Shown here: in pieces, positions 33,003 through 37,426 of the stretch
Position numbering within the stretch: position 1 is the first letter of the stretch
Layout: every line of letters begins with the position of its first letter
Source of the DNA: Geodermatophilus sabuli
GTDB lineage: Bacteria > Actinomycetota > Actinomycetes > Mycobacteriales > Geodermatophilaceae
Assembly (NCBI RefSeq): GCF_010686765.1
Contig: NZ_JAAGWF010000020.1
Coordinates: forward strand, 1-64,000
Reading direction: 5' to 3'
DNA: 64,000 nt
Translations under genes and position numbers: made by a program
The notes under the pieces: model-generated
Seen by the model: only the letters and a program-made list of their open reading frames with translations
What the model was told of the DNA's origin: nothing
Databases searched by the model: none

Positions 33003-33034
33003 TTGACCTGGGAGTGGGGTCCAAGGTCTACCGT
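33003..33034 (+). promoter_or_regulatory. MerR-type promoter with operator dyad in a 20-bp spacer
   Basis: -35 TTGACC (33003-33008) and -10 TACCGT (33029-33034) are 20 bp apart, the long spacing typical of MerR-controlled promoters. The dyad GACCTGGGA (33005-33013) and TCCAAGGTC (33020-33028) matches at 8 of 9. The -10 ends 6 nt before the ATG, so the mRNA is probably leaderless. Confidence 0.75.
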
Positions 33035-33040
33035 CCGGCC

Positions 33041-33481
33041 ATGACAGCCGCTCCCGCCCGCGGCATGCGGGTCTCCGAGCTCGCCGAGGCGGCCGGCGTG
33101 GCCTCGGACACGGTGCGCTACTACGAGCGTGCCGGGCTCCTCCCGCCACCGGAGCGGACACCGTCGGGGTACCGCAGCTACGACGCGGGCGCGCTGGACC
33201 GGCTGCACTTCATCCAGGGCGCACAGCGACTCGGCCTGCGGCTGACCGACATCCGTGACCTGCTCGCCATCCGCGACACCGGCCGATGCCCCTGCGAGCC
33301 GGCCGAGGCGGTCCTGCGCCGCCGCCTGGCCGAACTGGACGTCGAGCTGGCGCGCCTGCAGGCGCTCCGGGCCGAGATGGTCGCGATGGCCGACGCGCTA
33401 CCGGCGGCCGACTGCCCGCCGCCGAGCCCCGGCACCTGGTGCCCGCCGGTGGAGGGAGGTGATCCGACATGCTCGTCCTGA
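33041..33481 (+). CDS. MerR-family heavy-metal-responsive regulator
   Basis: 146 residues. The N-terminal winged helix is MRVSELAEAAGVASDTVRYYERAGLLPPPERT. A long dimerisation helix (about 86-120) and a C-terminal metal loop follow. Candidate metal ligands are C83 and C85 (GRCPCEP), then C125 and C134 in DCPPPSPGTWC. The 9-residue step of the last pair matches the loop of MerR/PbrR-type sensors, with one more Cys (C144) near the end. ATG 33041 is leaderless; ATG 33065 is an alternative. The last 13 nt overlap the Cys-rich peptide, so this sensor probably controls that peptide as well as itself. The metal is not known; Hg, Pb, Cd or Zn are candidates. Confidence 0.88.
   Translation: MTAAPARGMRVSELAEAAGVASDTVRYYERAGLLPPPERTPSGYRSYDAGALDRLHFIQGAQRLGLRLTDIRDLLAIRDTGRCPCEPAEAVLRRRLAELDVELARLQALRAEMVAMADALPAADCPPPSPGTWCPPVEGGDPTCSS
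33455..33465 (+). promoter_or_regulatory. Perfect 11-nt Shine-Dalgarno for the Cys-rich peptide
   Basis: GGAGGTGATCC is fully complementary to the 16S rRNA 3' end. GGAGG ends 9 nt before ATG 33469. It lies inside the merR coding sequence and is the longest ribosome site noticed in the window. Confidence 0.8.
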
Positions 33482-33540
33482 CCGTCGACTGCGACTGCGA
33501 CTGCGACTGCGCCGAGGCCTGCAGCTGCGACTGCTGCTGA
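33469..33540 (+). CDS. 23-residue Cys-rich peptide, putative metal-binding (metallothionein-like)
   Basis: The product is MLVLTV followed by DC repeated four times, AEAC, SC, DC and a final C: eight Cys and five Asp among 23 residues. Such an alternating thiol/carboxylate string would bind soft metals. Its ATG lies 13 nt inside the end of the MerR metal sensor, on an 11-nt perfect Shine-Dalgarno. Regulator and peptide are therefore one leaderless, translation-coupled unit, closed by a hairpin 22 nt after the stop. It adjoins the arsenic genes. It matches no metallothionein class I know. It could be a metal buffer, a chaperone to the sensor, or a Cys-codon leader that senses cysteine supply. 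Confidence 0.75.
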   Translation: MLVLTVDCDCDCDCAEACSCDCC

Positions 33541-33562: not shown

Positions 33563-33599
33563 ACCACCGGGCCCGGGCCCGGTCGCTGTCGCCGGTGGT
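33563..33599 (+). terminator. Hairpin between the Cys-rich peptide and arsR
   Basis: Arms ACCACCGG (33563-33570) and CCGGTGGT (33592-33599) are perfect, with a GC-rich loop of 21 nt that can fold further. It separates the merR-peptide unit from the arsR promoter. Confidence 0.5.
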
Positions 33600-33615: not shown

Positions 33616-33652
33616 CATCGATGCCGATCACATCGATGGACATCACTAGACT
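33616..33652 (+). promoter_or_regulatory. arsR promoter with two CATCGATG palindromes
   Basis: Identical 8-bp palindromes CATCGATG lie at 33616-33623 and 33631-33638, 15 bp apart. They are followed by -10 TAGACT (33647-33652), 8 nt before ATG 33661. The pair is a likely ArsR operator overlapping the promoter, and the mRNA looks leaderless. Confidence 0.65.
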
Positions 33653-33660
33653 GTCGGCTC

Positions 33661-34035
33661 ATGGACGTCGACGACGCACGGCAGACCGGCGGTGCCGGCA
33701 CGCCCTGCTGCCCACCGCTGACCGGTACCGCGATGAGCGCGGAGCAGGCGGAGCGGGTCGCCCCCCTGCTCAAGGCGCTGGCCGACCCGGTGCGGCTGCG
33801 GCTGGTGAGCCTGATCGCCTCGGCCGAGCGGGGCGAGGCGTGCGTGTGCGACCTCAACGAGGCCTTCGACCTCACCCAGGCCACGGTCAGCCACCACCTG
33901 AAGGTGCTGCACTCGGCAGGAGTGCTGGACCGGGAGAAGCGCGGCGTCTGGGTCTGGTACGCCGTGCGCCCCCAGGCCCTGGCTGCCGTGGCCACCCTGT
34001 TCGCCTCGCCCGCCCTCGTGGGCGCCGGCCGGTGA
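33661..34035 (+). CDS. arsR: ArsR-family arsenite-responsive repressor
   Basis: 124 residues. Winged helix: LLKALADPVRLRLVSLIA, then the recognition helix TQATVSHHLKVLHSAG. The candidate As(III) site is a Cys pair near the N-terminus (C16, C17) plus C61/C63 in EACVCDL. This is like the actinobacterial CgArsR arrangement, in which an N-terminal Cys pair works with a Cys of the other subunit. ATG 33661 is leaderless behind a two-palindrome operator. The stop overlaps the efflux gene by 4 nt (GTGA). It should repress arsR-acr3-arsC until arsenite or antimonite binds. Confidence 0.92.
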   Translation: MDVDDARQTGGAGTPCCPPLTGTAMSAEQAERVAPLLKALADPVRLRLVSLIASAERGEACVCDLNEAFDLTQATVSHHLKVLHSAGVLDREKRGVWVWYAVRPQALAAVATLFASPALVGAGR

Positions 34036-35156
34036 GCGACACCGTCGGCGAGACCGCCCGTCCCGGCACCGGCCTCGACGCCCCGGTGCTGCAGCGACTG
34101 TCCACCCTCGACCGGTTCCTGCCGGTGTGGATCATCGCCGCCATGGCCGCCGGCCTGCTGCTCGGCCGCCTCGTCCCCGGCCTCGACGACGCCCTCGACG
34201 CCGTCGAGGTCGGCGACGTCAGCCTGCCGATCGCGATCGGGCTGCTGCTGATGATGTACCCGGTGCTGGCCAAGGTCCGGTACACCGAGCTCGACCGGGT
34301 CACCGGCGACCGCAAGCTGCTGGGCGCCAGCCTGGTGCTCAACTGGCTGGTCGGCCCGGCGCTGATGTTCGCGCTGGCCTGGCTGCTCCTGCCCGACCTG
34401 CCCGAGTACCGCACCGGCCTGATCATCGTCGGCCTCGCCCGCTGCATCGCCATGGTGCTGATCTGGAACGACCTGTCCTGCGGCGACCGCGAAGCCGCCG
34501 CCGTCCTCGTCGCCCTCAACTCGGTCTTCCAGATCCTCGCCTTCGCCGCGCTCGGCTGGTTCTACCTCCAGGTCCTCCCGGGCTGGCTGGGCCTGTCGAC
34601 CACGTCGGCGGAGTTCAGCGTCTGGGCGATCGTGGTCTCGGTACTGGTCTTCCTCGGCATCCCGCTGCTCGCCGGCTTCCTCACCCGCACGATCGGTGAG
34701 CGCGCCCGTGGCCGCGAGCACTACGAGAGCCGCGTGCTCCCCCGGATCGGCCCCATCGCGCTGTACGGGCTGCTGTTCACCATCGTCATGCTGTTCGCAC
34801 TGCAGGGCGATGCGATCACCTCGAACCCCTGGGACGTCGCGCGCATCGCGATGCCGCTGCTGGCCTACTTCTCCCTGATGTTCGGCGGCAGCTTCCTGCT
34901 CGGGATGCGCCTGGGCCTCGGCTACGCCAAGACCGCGACGCTGGCCTTCACCGCGGCGGGCAACAACTTCGAGCTGGCCATCGCCGTGGCGATCGGCACC
35001 TTCGGCGTCACCAGCGGCCAGGCCCTCGCCGGCGTCGTCGGGCCGCTCATCGAGGTCCCCGTCCTCGTCGGTCTCGTCTACGTCTCCCTCTGGGCGGCCC
35101 GGCGCTGGTTCCCCGGCGACCGCACCGTCCCCGACGCCGTCCGGAGCGCCCGATGA
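34032..35156 (+). CDS. acr3: ACR3-family arsenite efflux permease
   Basis: 374 residues with ten predicted helices. It exports As(III) across the membrane. The conserved Cys of the fourth helix is present (C138 in GLARCIAMVLIWNDLSCGD), as is the late conserved Glu in AAGNNFELAIAVAIG; both are hallmarks of Acr3 function. GTG 34032 overlaps the arsR stop and its own stop overlaps arsC (ATGA), so the three genes form one coupled operon. The N-terminal 25 residues are a hydrophilic extension. Confidence 0.95.
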   Translation: MSDTVGETARPGTGLDAPVLQRLSTLDRFLPVWIIAAMAAGLLLGRLVPGLDDALDAVEVGDVSLPIAIGLLLMMYPVLAKVRYTELDRVTGDRKLLGASLVLNWLVGPALMFALAWLLLPDLPEYRTGLIIVGLARCIAMVLIWNDLSCGDREAAAVLVALNSVFQILAFAALGWFYLQVLPGWLGLSTTSAEFSVWAIVVSVLVFLGIPLLAGFLTRTIGERARGREHYESRVLPRIGPIALYGLLFTIVMLFALQGDAITSNPWDVARIAMPLLAYFSLMFGGSFLLGMRLGLGYAKTATLAFTAAGNNFELAIAVAIGTFGVTSGQALAGVVGPLIEVPVLVGLVYVSLWAARRWFPGDRTVPDAVRSAR

Positions 35157-35569
35157 CCCAGCCCACCCGGCCCAGCGTGCTGTTCGTCTGCGTGCACAAC
35201 GCCGGCCGGTCGCAGATGGCCGCCGGCTGGCTGCGTCACCTCGCCGGGGACGCCGTCGTCGTCCGCTCCGCCGGGTCGGTGCCCGCCGAGCAGCTCAACC
35301 CGGCCGCGGTCGAGGCGATGGCCGAGGTCGGCATCGACATCGCCGACCAGCGCCCCGAGGTGCTCACCACCGGTGCGGTCGAGGCCTCCGACGTCGTCAT
35401 CACCATGGGCTGTGGCGACGCGTGCCCGGTCTTCCCGGGGAAGCGCTACCTGGACTGGGCCCTCGAGGACCCGGCGGGCAAGGGCGTGGAGTCGGTGCGG
35501 CCGATCCGCGACGAGATCGAGAGCCGCATCCGCGGCCTGCTCGCCGACCTGGGGACCGCACCGGTCTGA
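35153..35569 (+). CDS. arsC: Arsenate reductase, low-molecular-weight phosphatase fold
   Basis: 138 residues. It reduces As(V) to As(III) for export by Acr3. The P-loop is C13-V-H-N-A-G-R19 (the CX5R of LMW phosphatases), and further Cys are C87 and C91 in MGCGDACP. The late PIRDEIESRIRGLL helix is typical. Actinobacterial members use mycothiol/mycoredoxin or thioredoxin; which one applies here cannot be seen. It is coupled to acr3 by a 4-nt overlap and ends 29 nt from the convergent arsO-like gene. Confidence 0.93.
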   Translation: MTQPTRPSVLFVCVHNAGRSQMAAGWLRHLAGDAVVVRSAGSVPAEQLNPAAVEAMAEVGIDIADQRPEVLTTGAVEASDVVITMGCGDACPVFPGKRYLDWALEDPAGKGVESVRPIRDEIESRIRGLLADLGTAPV

Positions 35570-35598
35570 GCGGCCCGCTCGCCCGGAGCCGCGGCGGC

Positions 35599-36966
35599 TC
35601 AGCCGGTGGTGGCCGGTTGCCCCTCGGCCGACCAGCCGTGCGCCGATCCCGTCGCGAACCCCACGCCCGCGACCTCGGCGGCGTCACGCGCCCCGAGGTC
35701 GGTCGAGCAGACCCCGGTCGCGGGCAGCGCCAGCTCGACGCGCTCCGCGGCCGCCACATCGCCGGCCAGCGCGGCCGCGATCGAGCGCACCTGCTCGTAG
35801 CCGGTGGCCAGCAGGAACGTGGGCGCGCGGCCGTAGGACTTCACCCCGACCACGTAGAGGTGCTCGTCGGGGTGCGCCAGCAGCGCCGCGCCGTGCGGCG
35901 GGACGGTGCCGCAGGAGTGCGCGTTCGGGTCGATCAGCGGGGCCAGGCGCGCCGGCGCCTCGACGGCGGGGTCGAGGTCGAGACGGACCTCGCGGAGCAG
36001 GTCGAGGTCGGGGCGGAAGCCGGTCGCCGGCACGACGGCGTCGACCTCGAGGCGCACCACGGCGCCGTCCCGGCCCGCGCCGGTCACGGTCAGCCGACCG
36101 GCCCCGCCGTCCGGCGTCGCCAGAGAGGCGACGGTGAACTCGCGGACGAGGTCGACGGCGCCGACGGCGACGGCGTCCCGGAGCGTCCAGCCCAGCAGCC
36201 CGCGGGCCGGCAGGCCGTCGGCGTCCCCGCCGCCGTAGAGGCGGGCCGGCGAGCGGCCGCGGATCGCCCAGGTGACCCGCGTGCCCGGCTCCTGCTCCCG
36301 CAACCGGACGAGGGCCAGCAGCGTGGTCGCCGCCGAGTGGCCCATGCCGACGACGAGCGTGTGCCGCCCGGCGAACCGCTCCCGGTCGGTGCCGAGGACG
36401 TCCGGCAGCGGCCCGGTCAACCAGGCGCCGGCCCGGTCCTCCCCGACGGCAGGGAGCCCGGCGGCTCCCAGCGGGTTGCGGTGGCCCCACGTGCCCGAGG
36501 CGTCGAGCACCGCACGGACCGGCACGTCGGCGACCCCGCCGTCGGCGACGGTGCGGACGACGTAGGGCCGGCCGGCGCGGCCGACCGTACGGGTCTTGTC
36601 CACGCCGCTGCGGCTCACGGCGAGCACCCGGGTGCCGGTGCGGATGCGTGAGGCCAGCTCCGGGGTGGCCGCCAGCGGGGCGAGGTAGGCATCCACCAGT
36701 TCGGCCCCGGTGGGCAGCGCGTCCGGGTCGGGCGGCGTCCAGCCGTGCGCCACGAGCAGGCGCCGGGCCGCCGCGTCGACGTCGTAGGCCCACGGGGAGA
36801 ACAGCCGCACGTGCCCCCAGGCCCGGACGGTGGCACCCACCTCCCCGCCGGCCTCCAGCACGAGCGACTCCAGCCCGCGTTCCAGCAGGTGCGCCGCGGC
36901 GGCCAGGCCCACAGGCCCGGCGCCGATGACCGCGACCGGGAGCTCCGACGTCGGCACGTCCGCCAT
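35599..36966 (-). CDS. FAD-dependent monooxygenase, ArsO-like
   Basis: 455 residues. An N-terminal FAD Rossmann motif (VAVIGAGPVGLAAAAHLLERG), a second nucleotide site (LVVGMGHSAATTLLALV) and a late flavin block (LYVVGVKSYGRAPTFLLATG) are seen. ATG 36966 has GGAGGTGA 6 nt upstream; the ATG at 36984 would place that site inside the gene. Its position beside arsR-acr3-arsC and opposite a second arsR matches the flavin-binding ArsO described in Streptomyces arsenic clusters. Its reaction is not established there either. An unrelated amine or ketone monooxygenase is the alternative. Confidence 0.78.
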   Translation of the reverse strand: MADVPTSELPVAVIGAGPVGLAAAAHLLERGLESLVLEAGGEVGATVRAWGHVRLFSPWAYDVDAAARRLLVAHGWTPPDPDALPTGAELVDAYLAPLAATPELASRIRTGTRVLAVSRSGVDKTRTVGRAGRPYVVRTVADGGVADVPVRAVLDASGTWGHRNPLGAAGLPAVGEDRAGAWLTGPLPDVLGTDRERFAGRHTLVVGMGHSAATTLLALVRLREQEPGTRVTWAIRGRSPARLYGGGDADGLPARGLLGWTLRDAVAVGAVDLVREFTVASLATPDGGAGRLTVTGAGRDGAVVRLEVDAVVPATGFRPDLDLLREVRLDLDPAVEAPARLAPLIDPNAHSCGTVPPHGAALLAHPDEHLYVVGVKSYGRAPTFLLATGYEQVRSIAAALAGDVAAAERVELALPATGVCSTDLGARDAAEVAGVGFATGSAHGWSAEGQPATTG

Positions 36967-37063
36967 GCCGGTCACCTCCACCATATTTCGACAGGTGTCT
37001 ATGCCTGGTCAACGTAACAGTCGATGCTGTTGTCATCAACCGCGGCATGTCAGACTGGCTTGC
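36967..37063. promoter_or_regulatory. Divergent promoter region arsO-like / arsR2
   Basis: This 97-nt gap is richer in A/T than its surroundings. The arsR2 -10 is probably CAGACT (37051-37056), 7 nt before ATG 37064, so leaderless. GACA-GG-TGTC at 36990-36999 is a short inverted repeat. A shared ArsR2 operator serving both genes is likely but not defined. Confidence 0.45.
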
Positions 37064-37426
37064 ATGCGACAGGACCTCGACGTGCGGCTCCTCGACCGCG
37101 GATCCCTGCTCTCGGCTGTCGACCGTGCCGGCCTGCTCGCACCCCGACTCAAGGCGCTCGGGGACCCCAACCGGCTGCACCTGCTGCTGCTGCTGGCGGA
37201 CTCCCCGCGGTCGGTGCGCGAGCTGACCGAGCTCAGCGGGATGGGGCAGACGCTGGTGAGCCACCACCTCGCGCCGCTGCGCGAGCAGGGGCTGGTCACC
37301 GTCACCCCCGAGGGGCGCAGCAACGTCTACGCCCTGTGCTGCGAGGCGCTCGCCGGACCGGTCCGGCTGCTGGCCACCCTGGCCGCGCTCACCCCCGAGG
37401 GCGCCGACGCCTGCTGCGCTCCCTGA
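37064..37426 (+). CDS. Second ArsR-family repressor
   Basis: 120 residues. Winged helix: LKALGDPNRLHLLLLLA, then LSGMGQTLVSHHLAPLREQGLV. Metal-site candidates differ from the first ArsR: two Cys pairs in the C-terminal part (C92-C93 in YALCCEAL and C117-C118 at the end), none near the N-terminus. It is divergent from the arsO-like gene across 97 nt, so it probably regulates that gene and itself. Different Cys placement from the first ArsR suggests it evolved separately or senses a different form, for example an organoarsenical. Confidence 0.88.
   Translation: MRQDLDVRLLDRGSLLSAVDRAGLLAPRLKALGDPNRLHLLLLLADSPRSVRELTELSGMGQTLVSHHLAPLREQGLVTVTPEGRSNVYALCCEALAGPVRLLATLAALTPEGADACCAP

Follow-up and report, generated by a model that had tools for sequence, protein, structure and literature searches.

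The 64,000-nucleotide stretch of Geodermatophilus sabuli DNA analysed here (the window) carries a gene for a 23-residue peptide with eight cysteines, which begins within the last codons of a gene for a MerR-family metal sensor. Comparison with relatives establishes it as a genuine gene that is kept by selection and is linked to one clade of MerR proteins and to the operator of that clade. At a probability of roughly 0.75, we read the pair as an autoregulated two-gene merR–peptide operon for metal buffering, whose effector would be a gene-encoded micro-metallothionein of 11–34 residues. The pair comprises the following features.

33003..33034, + strand: predicted MerR-type operator/promoter, TTGACC-20 bp-TACCGT, facing merR; found in the same place in relatives
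33041..33481, + strand: merR, MerR-family metal sensor of 146 aa with C83-P-C85 and C125-x8-C134 (NCBIfam, PDB profiles, alignment)
33455..33465, + strand: Shine–Dalgarno (SD) site GGAGGTGATCC, able to pair over 11 nt with the 16S 3′ end (16S tail of a same-genus genome; Gly codon skew in relatives)
33469..33540, + strand: gene for the Cys-rich micropeptide, 23 aa with 8 Cys (relatives conserve the frame, Cys clusters and SD and show purifying selection)
33486..33511, + strand: 6-bp tandem repeat, 4.3 copies, encoding DCDCDCDC of the window copy (Tandem Repeats Finder)

A conserved cysteine-rich micropeptide gene

The micropeptide ATG (33469–33471) lies inside the final merR codons, the merR TGA falls at 33479–33481, and the frame closes at a stop codon at 33538–33540 to give the product MLVLTVDCDCDCDCAEACSCDCC. 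These coordinates confirm the preliminary description of the locus, which had placed a 23-residue, eight-Cys frame with its ATG at 33469 in the last codons of merR. The four Asp-Cys pairs of the window peptide coincide with the 6-bp tandem repeat (100% matches), which makes comparison with relatives essential. The Cys pattern that had been described stood in part: clusters of CxC and CC with Asp, Glu, Gly and Pro spacers recur in relatives, but the exact CDCDCDCD string was seen only in the window copy. A simple-repeat artefact is excluded, as the peptides at L031 and L044 share similar Cys layouts with other intervening residues.

Among the 71 peptides recovered by the scan described below, length ranges from 11 to 34 aa (median 21); Cys accounts for 34% of residues, Asp for 16% and Lys for <1%, and 43 of the peptides carry CC at the C-terminal end; at L013 the length of 18 residues is counted from an ATG, and an earlier GTG exists. 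Small size, very high Cys content (34% after the Met, 4–10 Cys across the 71 peptides) and CxC/CC motifs are all features of metallothioneins. Pfam and NCBIfam profiles gave no match at E up to 10 to the window peptide or to four further short peptides, and a sixth (L097, 38 aa) gave a single chance Pfam match (6.5 bits against a cut-off of 24). None of the peptides searched is therefore recognised by a metallothionein profile of either collection, in which profiles may be unable to detect peptides this short.

Conservation of the frame and its Cys pattern in relatives had been set beforehand as the point on which the description would stand or fall, and it is borne out at every level sampled. 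The MerR protein was searched against 112 genomes of the family, and close MerR matches (E 8.1e-41 or better) lie at 22 places in 20 of them. The best 20 of these places all have a Cys-rich frame of 16–24 residues and a GGAGG-containing SD at the merR 3′ end, and the next ten MerR loci fetched from the family have no Cys-rich frame at the merR 3′ end; one such control, L024, has a 13-aa, three-Cys frame without SD 465 nt downstream. A second copy in genome G086 keeps the frame with one Cys lost and the merR stop gone. The second copy in G048 (L175, with the W..C motif of its MerR kept; see below) retains an SD, has lost the Cys frame and the usual merR stop, and carries an eroded operator; it resembles a duplicate in decay, in a genome that also has an intact pair. 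Overall, the peptide frame with a strong SD is present at 21 of 22 family loci of this MerR clade.

In a set of named species, the best 80 of 559 candidates, the frame occurs at 61 of 67 actinobacterial loci (L031–L097) and at none of 13 from other phyla; the six misses include L095 and L096, with a longer Cys-rich frame, and L089, with a two-Cys frame. Carriers belong to Geodermatophilus, Modestobacter, Georgenia, Knoellia, Ornithinimicrobium, Micrococcus, Enemella, Virgisporangium, Saccharothrix, Lentzea, Amycolatopsis, Actinomycetospora, Actinomadura and Glycomyces. The frame begins past the merR stop, with its own SD, at 16 of the 61 loci of this best-80-of-559 set, which rules out a C-terminal MerR extension made by frameshifting. 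At the order level 20 of 24 scanned loci carry the frame (27 were newly numbered; L113, L114, L135 and some of the 24 repeat loci already seen). Across 396 genomes of the phylum, 20 have a MerR at E 1e-36 or better, and a Cys-rich frame follows at 16 of the 19 loci besides our own, of which L151 and L163 are read in frame with merR and L164 and L166 are longer; the exceptions have two Cys (L156), a thioredoxin-like-looking partner (L157) or nothing (L158). Two Rhodococcus plasmids also carry the pair, with no CDS at the peptide in the PLSDB table, itself incomplete. The family, order, phylum and named samples overlap (for example, L002 = L031, L003 = L042, L040 = L115, L059 = L152, L089 = L156 and L090 = L155), and these counts are not additive.

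We then compared the merR 3′ zones with the surrounding DNA, scanning 91 merR loci (window locus left out) for frames of 10–40 aa with at least 4 Cys and at least 20% Cys. Such a frame is present in the merR 3′ zone at 71 of the 91 loci, 67 of them with an SD match of at least 7 nt; outside these zones, the same loci (1.32 million strand-bases) contain 18 such frames, none with an SD match of at least 7 nt. Groups of comparable peptides, drawn from 31 of the 71 loci, give a pN of 0.097 and a pS of 0.328, a ratio of 0.30 (0.15–0.53 in single groups; window locus left out, pairs not independent). The shifted frames give 1.79 and 1.16, and the proposed check for purifying selection thus came out in favour of the gene. 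At aligned Cys positions, 437 pairs are kept, 43 of them through a TGC/TGT change, and 17 are lost.

The SD sequence GGAGGTGATCC is present as a single copy in the 64-kb window, both strands searched, and shuffled windows contain it 0.03 times on average (3 of 100 shuffles with a match). The full 11-nt complementarity noted from the window holds against the 16S 3′ end in a genome of the same genus (L171), since that end reads ...GGCTGGATCACCTCCTTTCTAAGG; a search for the 16S tail pattern in the window's own assembly gave no match. In relatives, the Gly codons of merR within the SD stretch are GGA 49, GGG 26, GGT 25 and GGC 0, and those elsewhere in merR are GGC 367, GGG 252, GGT 84 and GGA 66. 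Because of this skew, with GGC absent, the SD site seems to be conserved for its own sake, beyond merR coding. The match is just 5–6 nt at several loci (L013, L016, L047, L071, L117).

Several loci depart from the simple pair. At L155/L090 (the same locus), L159 and L160, two different Cys-rich micropeptide genes follow one merR in tandem, each with its own SD (MTDVVPCDCPCGCCPCEGC and MTETPCPCCGCPCGDCGGPGSK at L159, for example). At L151 and L163 the reading frame runs on from the MerR C terminus into the peptide without an intervening stop, and L151 retains an internal GGAGGTGA ahead of ATGATG, so that it may yield the peptide in free as well as fused form. Proteins of greater length, with repeated CGCG/CSCG motifs, lie behind merR at L095, L097, L164 and L166 in other Actinomycetota. 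At L157, from position 1944 onward, a small protein that is thioredoxin-like by eye (FTAGCPVC...LPTVVVNG) replaces the peptide, preceded by a merR and an operator of the usual type.

The MerR sensor and its operator

The window MerR combines a winged-helix domain with a dimerisation helix, as judged by NCBIfam, PDB profiles and predicted secondary structure, and its PDB profile matches are CadR, MerR and CueR. Against the NCBIfam models for MerR, ZntR, CadR and CueR it scores below every equivalog cut-off (MerR 90.2 against 150.85; CueR 79.3 against 147.4), and it is not assigned to any of these named types. The predicted structure (mean pLDDT 82.5) has a long helix at residues 88–119 and a low-confidence C-terminal loop. 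In the alignment, C85 takes the position of the divalent-metal Cys in CadR and mercury MerR, and C125-x8-C134 fits the C-terminal loop, although C125 is absent in L018 and L019. The window protein thus has the ligand set of divalent-type sensors, a Cys at the start of the dimer helix and a C-terminal Cys pair.

Presence of the peptide goes with the last ligand Cys, part of the W..C motif. The CxC motif is found in 93 of 94 peptide-linked MerRs, and among CxC MerRs W..C is kept in 89 of 93 with a peptide versus 3 of 10 without (Fisher p 1.8e-6, relatedness ignored); in these counts the window locus is left out, and L163 (fused), L164 and L096 (longer frames) were labelled by hand as having a peptide. 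The seven sister MerRs with Arg or Lys after that W, at the position of the last ligand Cys, are all without a peptide, and L048 and L149 have Leu there and keep theirs. W..C is kept yet no peptide with at least 4 Cys is present at L089, L157 and L158; the peptide is present without W..C at L048, L149, L095 and also L087, whose merR is frameshifted.

The operator is recognised in three of the seven Arg/Lys sisters (L056, L148 and L150, the first two near-identical), where it faces away from merR. At L148 (M. abscessus pGD22-1) and L150 (Streptomyces pFRL4), the reversed operator points at a divergently oriented gene with the annotation of a cation-translocating P-type ATPase. The best match of the fetched parts is the heavy-metal P-type ATPase family, above the cut-off for L148 and just below it for L150, and the second-best family in both is the cadmium one, below cut-off. 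A more distant plasmid MerR relative adjoins merA. In a MerR tree of 127 rows, every peptide carrier falls in one 102-row group (92 with, 10 without; support 100/99), and the label changes between peptide and no peptide number 5 versus 31.0 in shuffles. This tree has few columns and midpoint rooting, omits L087, L019, L156 and rows of <100 residues, and includes L163 and L164 with labels set by hand.

The predicted operator has the over-long spacer and the inner GGA/TCC dyad of an operator-promoter of this family (TTGACC-20-TANNNT). It ends 6 nt before the merR ATG, which makes a leaderless merR mRNA likely. A scan of 130 loci for the motif (window locus left out; L156, read at a wrong position here and in the W..C counts above, scored as a miss in both) found the operator facing merR at 70 of the 91 loci positive in the scanner, both ways at 1, only away at 0, and not at all at 20. 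Among the 39 loci without a scanned peptide it faces merR at 6, faces away at 5 and was not found at 28; one of those six, L163, has the peptide fused in frame.

In the window's own genome the operator pattern has one match at up to 3 mismatches, at merR itself. Among 26 genomes of the genus, the pattern occurs once in 10 and is absent in 16. By position, nine of the ten sites are at the peptide-clade merR, and the tenth (G057) precedes a different, longer MerR-type protein without a Cys frame; G049, which has the peptide, shows no operator site at that stringency. The exact pattern was too strict, matching 0 of 394 genomes of the class, our own included because its operator differs by one base. 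The sensor's own operon is thus the one target that shows up at this level of stringency, and, judged by the operator, MerR seems to control itself.

Proposed metal buffering and competing explanations

In the cycle we propose, MerR without metal would sit on the over-long (20-bp) promoter ahead of its own gene. A soft metal bound by the MerR cysteines (C85 with C125/C134 by alignment, together with C83) would untwist the promoter and turn on a merR transcript with the peptide as its second cistron. Ribosomes would enter this cistron through the strong SD overlapping or following the merR stop, and the acidic peptide, about one-third Cys, would bind metal by its thiolates like a miniature metallothionein. 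By lowering the free metal, the peptide would then switch the sensor off again. The operator supports metal-induced expression; metal activation of the sensor, the level of translation and abundance of the peptide, its binding of metal and a role in detoxification or tolerance are what we infer from this arrangement. Zn/Cd/Pb/Hg-like divalent ions are the likeliest metals, favoured by the operator type, with its likeness to zntA-type promoters, and by the ATPase and merA sister systems. As(III) is possible, and As(III)/Sb(III) are kept as candidates because of the loci with an ars island. Features downstream of the peptide gene in the window are as follows.

about 33566..33583, + strand: GC-rich hairpin after the stop, a possible terminator without a T run (fold)
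33661..34035, + strand: arsR, ArsR/SmtB repressor, apparent start of a separate ars operon; context (ORF list, NCBIfam)
34032..35156, + strand: acr3, arsenite efflux transporter; context (NCBIfam TIGR00832, 438.6 bits)
35153..35569, + strand: arsC-type arsenate reductase; context (NCBIfam)

A hairpin soon after the stop, which the preliminary description had reported, is present, and such stems are enriched in relatives, where stems of at least 8 bp lie within 90 nt of the stop at 32 of 71 loci versus 69 of 1420 random windows (window locus left out); the window copy, however, is not stronger than shuffled sequence (z = +0.52). Of 60 loci with a next gene called, 28 have it on the same strand and 32 on the opposite strand, and at 31 it has no relative in the set, by automatic gene calls that mis-parsed the window arsR. 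The loci therefore lack the conserved co-directional downstream gene expected of an attenuator. Identified neighbours elsewhere are thrS, purA, hrpA and a histidine kinase, and no conserved transporter lies beside the pair in the loci examined.

The ars island of the window spans 33661–37426 and continues, after arsR, acr3 and arsC, with a reverse-strand gene of an ArsO-like flavoprotein cluster and a second gene of an arsR cluster. Just before arsR (33661), positions 33616–33646 hold an imperfect 15-bp direct repeat with CATCGATG blocks, possibly an ArsR operator, and the ars operon may accordingly have its own control. Similar ars gene sets occur near the merR–peptide pair in several other genera. 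Membership of the peptide in the ars operon was rejected, as just 10 of the 61 loci checked hold two or more out of five gene clusters with ars-type members (clusters formed by blastp linkage and named by their representatives, not member by member).

Four other explanations of the peptide can be set against metal buffering. A chance frame or simple repeat, with an SD conserved only since merR encodes E-G-G-D, would fit the 6-bp repeat in the window copy and the overlap of the SD with merR codons; its probability is practically nil, being refuted by the family and named-set counts, the SD scan and the pN/pS ratio, together with the named loci that start after the merR stop (16/61, best 80 of 559) and the Gly codon skew. 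The peptide might instead be the precursor of a modified natural product (RiPP) or a metallophore. Short gene-encoded Cys-rich peptides can indeed be RiPP precursors, but no gene cluster recurs beside most loci (the identified neighbours being thrS, purA, hrpA, the kinase and ars genes) and a leader–core layout is not evident, and we regard this origin as very improbable. The preliminary description had itself offered a leader that senses cysteine or mycothiol. Ribosomes stalling on the Cys codons of such a leader would attenuate a downstream gene. Such a leader would account for a short, Cys-codon-rich frame in actinobacteria and for the hairpins past the stop at 32 of 71 loci, and it has a precedent in the mycobacterial polycysteine sORF attenuators, described as leaderless and as controlling a downstream gene (Canestrari 2020, as cited in PMC9094748). 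Those sORFs are likewise short, Cys-rich and from Actinomycetota; as far as that secondary citation describes them, they differ from the window type, which is a distal cistron with a strong SD and no conserved downstream gene. The leader is disfavoured because the next gene varies between genomes and lies on the opposite strand at 32 of 60 loci; the frame is a second cistron with a strong SD rather than a leaderless first frame, and it goes with the metal-ligand cysteine of MerR. On this evidence the leader is quite improbable.

The fourth alternative sees the peptide chiefly as a feedback buffer, acting as off-switch or metal chaperone on its own MerR rather than as a bulk detoxifier, with detoxification taking place elsewhere. 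The sole operator found in the own genome sits at merR itself, no conserved transporter was found alongside, and merR and the peptide can be read in one frame at L151 and L163, all of which suit this role. The strong SD, in contrast, suggests a peptide output above that of the sensor, and the tandem second peptides (L090/L155, L159, L160) look like added binding capacity; we regard an off-switch as the main role as unlikely. A broader form of the metal-buffering operon is more tentative than the operon itself, and we put it at somewhat less than even odds. In that form the peptide would be both effector and feedback off-switch, the peptides would be phylum-wide the smallest gene-encoded metallothioneins (down to 11 residues, 4–6 Cys), each exporter-free and with its own MerR, and the MerR lineage would have swapped efflux ATPase for peptide, or the reverse, by turning the operator round and losing or gaining one ligand Cys.

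Relation to known metal-binding peptides

Bacterial metallothioneins such as SmtA, MymT and PmtA have about 50 aa or more. The peptide resembles them in being small and Cys-rich, in its metal-resistance context and in its expected thiolate binding, and differs from them in its length of 11–34 aa and its place as second cistron behind its own MerR. We class it with the metallothionein kind by its presumed way of working, strict membership being putative. Among fungal mini-metallothioneins, the copper-specific Neurospora copper MT has about 25 aa with CxC motifs, a similar size and Cys density; these are eukaryotic and without an operon. Phytochelatins, which an enzyme assembles from glutathione through gamma bonds, and synthetic (Glu-Cys)n peptides share with DCDCDCDC their repeats of an acidic residue and Cys; unlike phytochelatins, the window peptide is ribosomal.

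The nearest printed precedent that we found is in Pseudomonas aeruginosa, where CadR activates zrd, a gene for a small metallothionein-like Cys protein that annotation had missed (PMC12301328). According to that report, Zrd has two predicted zinc-ribbon domains, its gene lies away from cadR, and cadR autoregulation is discounted. Both systems combine a MerR-family sensor with a small Cys product overlooked by annotation; unlike CadR–zrd as portrayed there, the micropeptide shares one operon with its sensor, and that sensor, judged by the operator, seems to be autoregulated. Searches of open-licence PMC papers listed no report of a MerR-coupled Cys micropeptide.

Gene finders readily miss reading frames of this size, and the two annotated plasmid records checked that carry the pair list no gene at the peptide; a system of >12 named genera (in the best 80 of 559) may consequently be largely unannotated. 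If the peptide binds metal as expected, it would define the lower end of the size range of natural metallothioneins and would supply ready-made metal-binding peptides of 11–23 residues with natural sensors. It would also represent a metal circuit without an adjacent exporter, made of one operator, one sensor and one peptide. The diversity of natural variants makes the relation of Cys spacing to metal choice directly testable. In Geodermatophilus obscurus DSM 43162 (L087/L020), the frameshifted merR is followed by an intact peptide frame and SD, which may reflect a sequencing error or decay.
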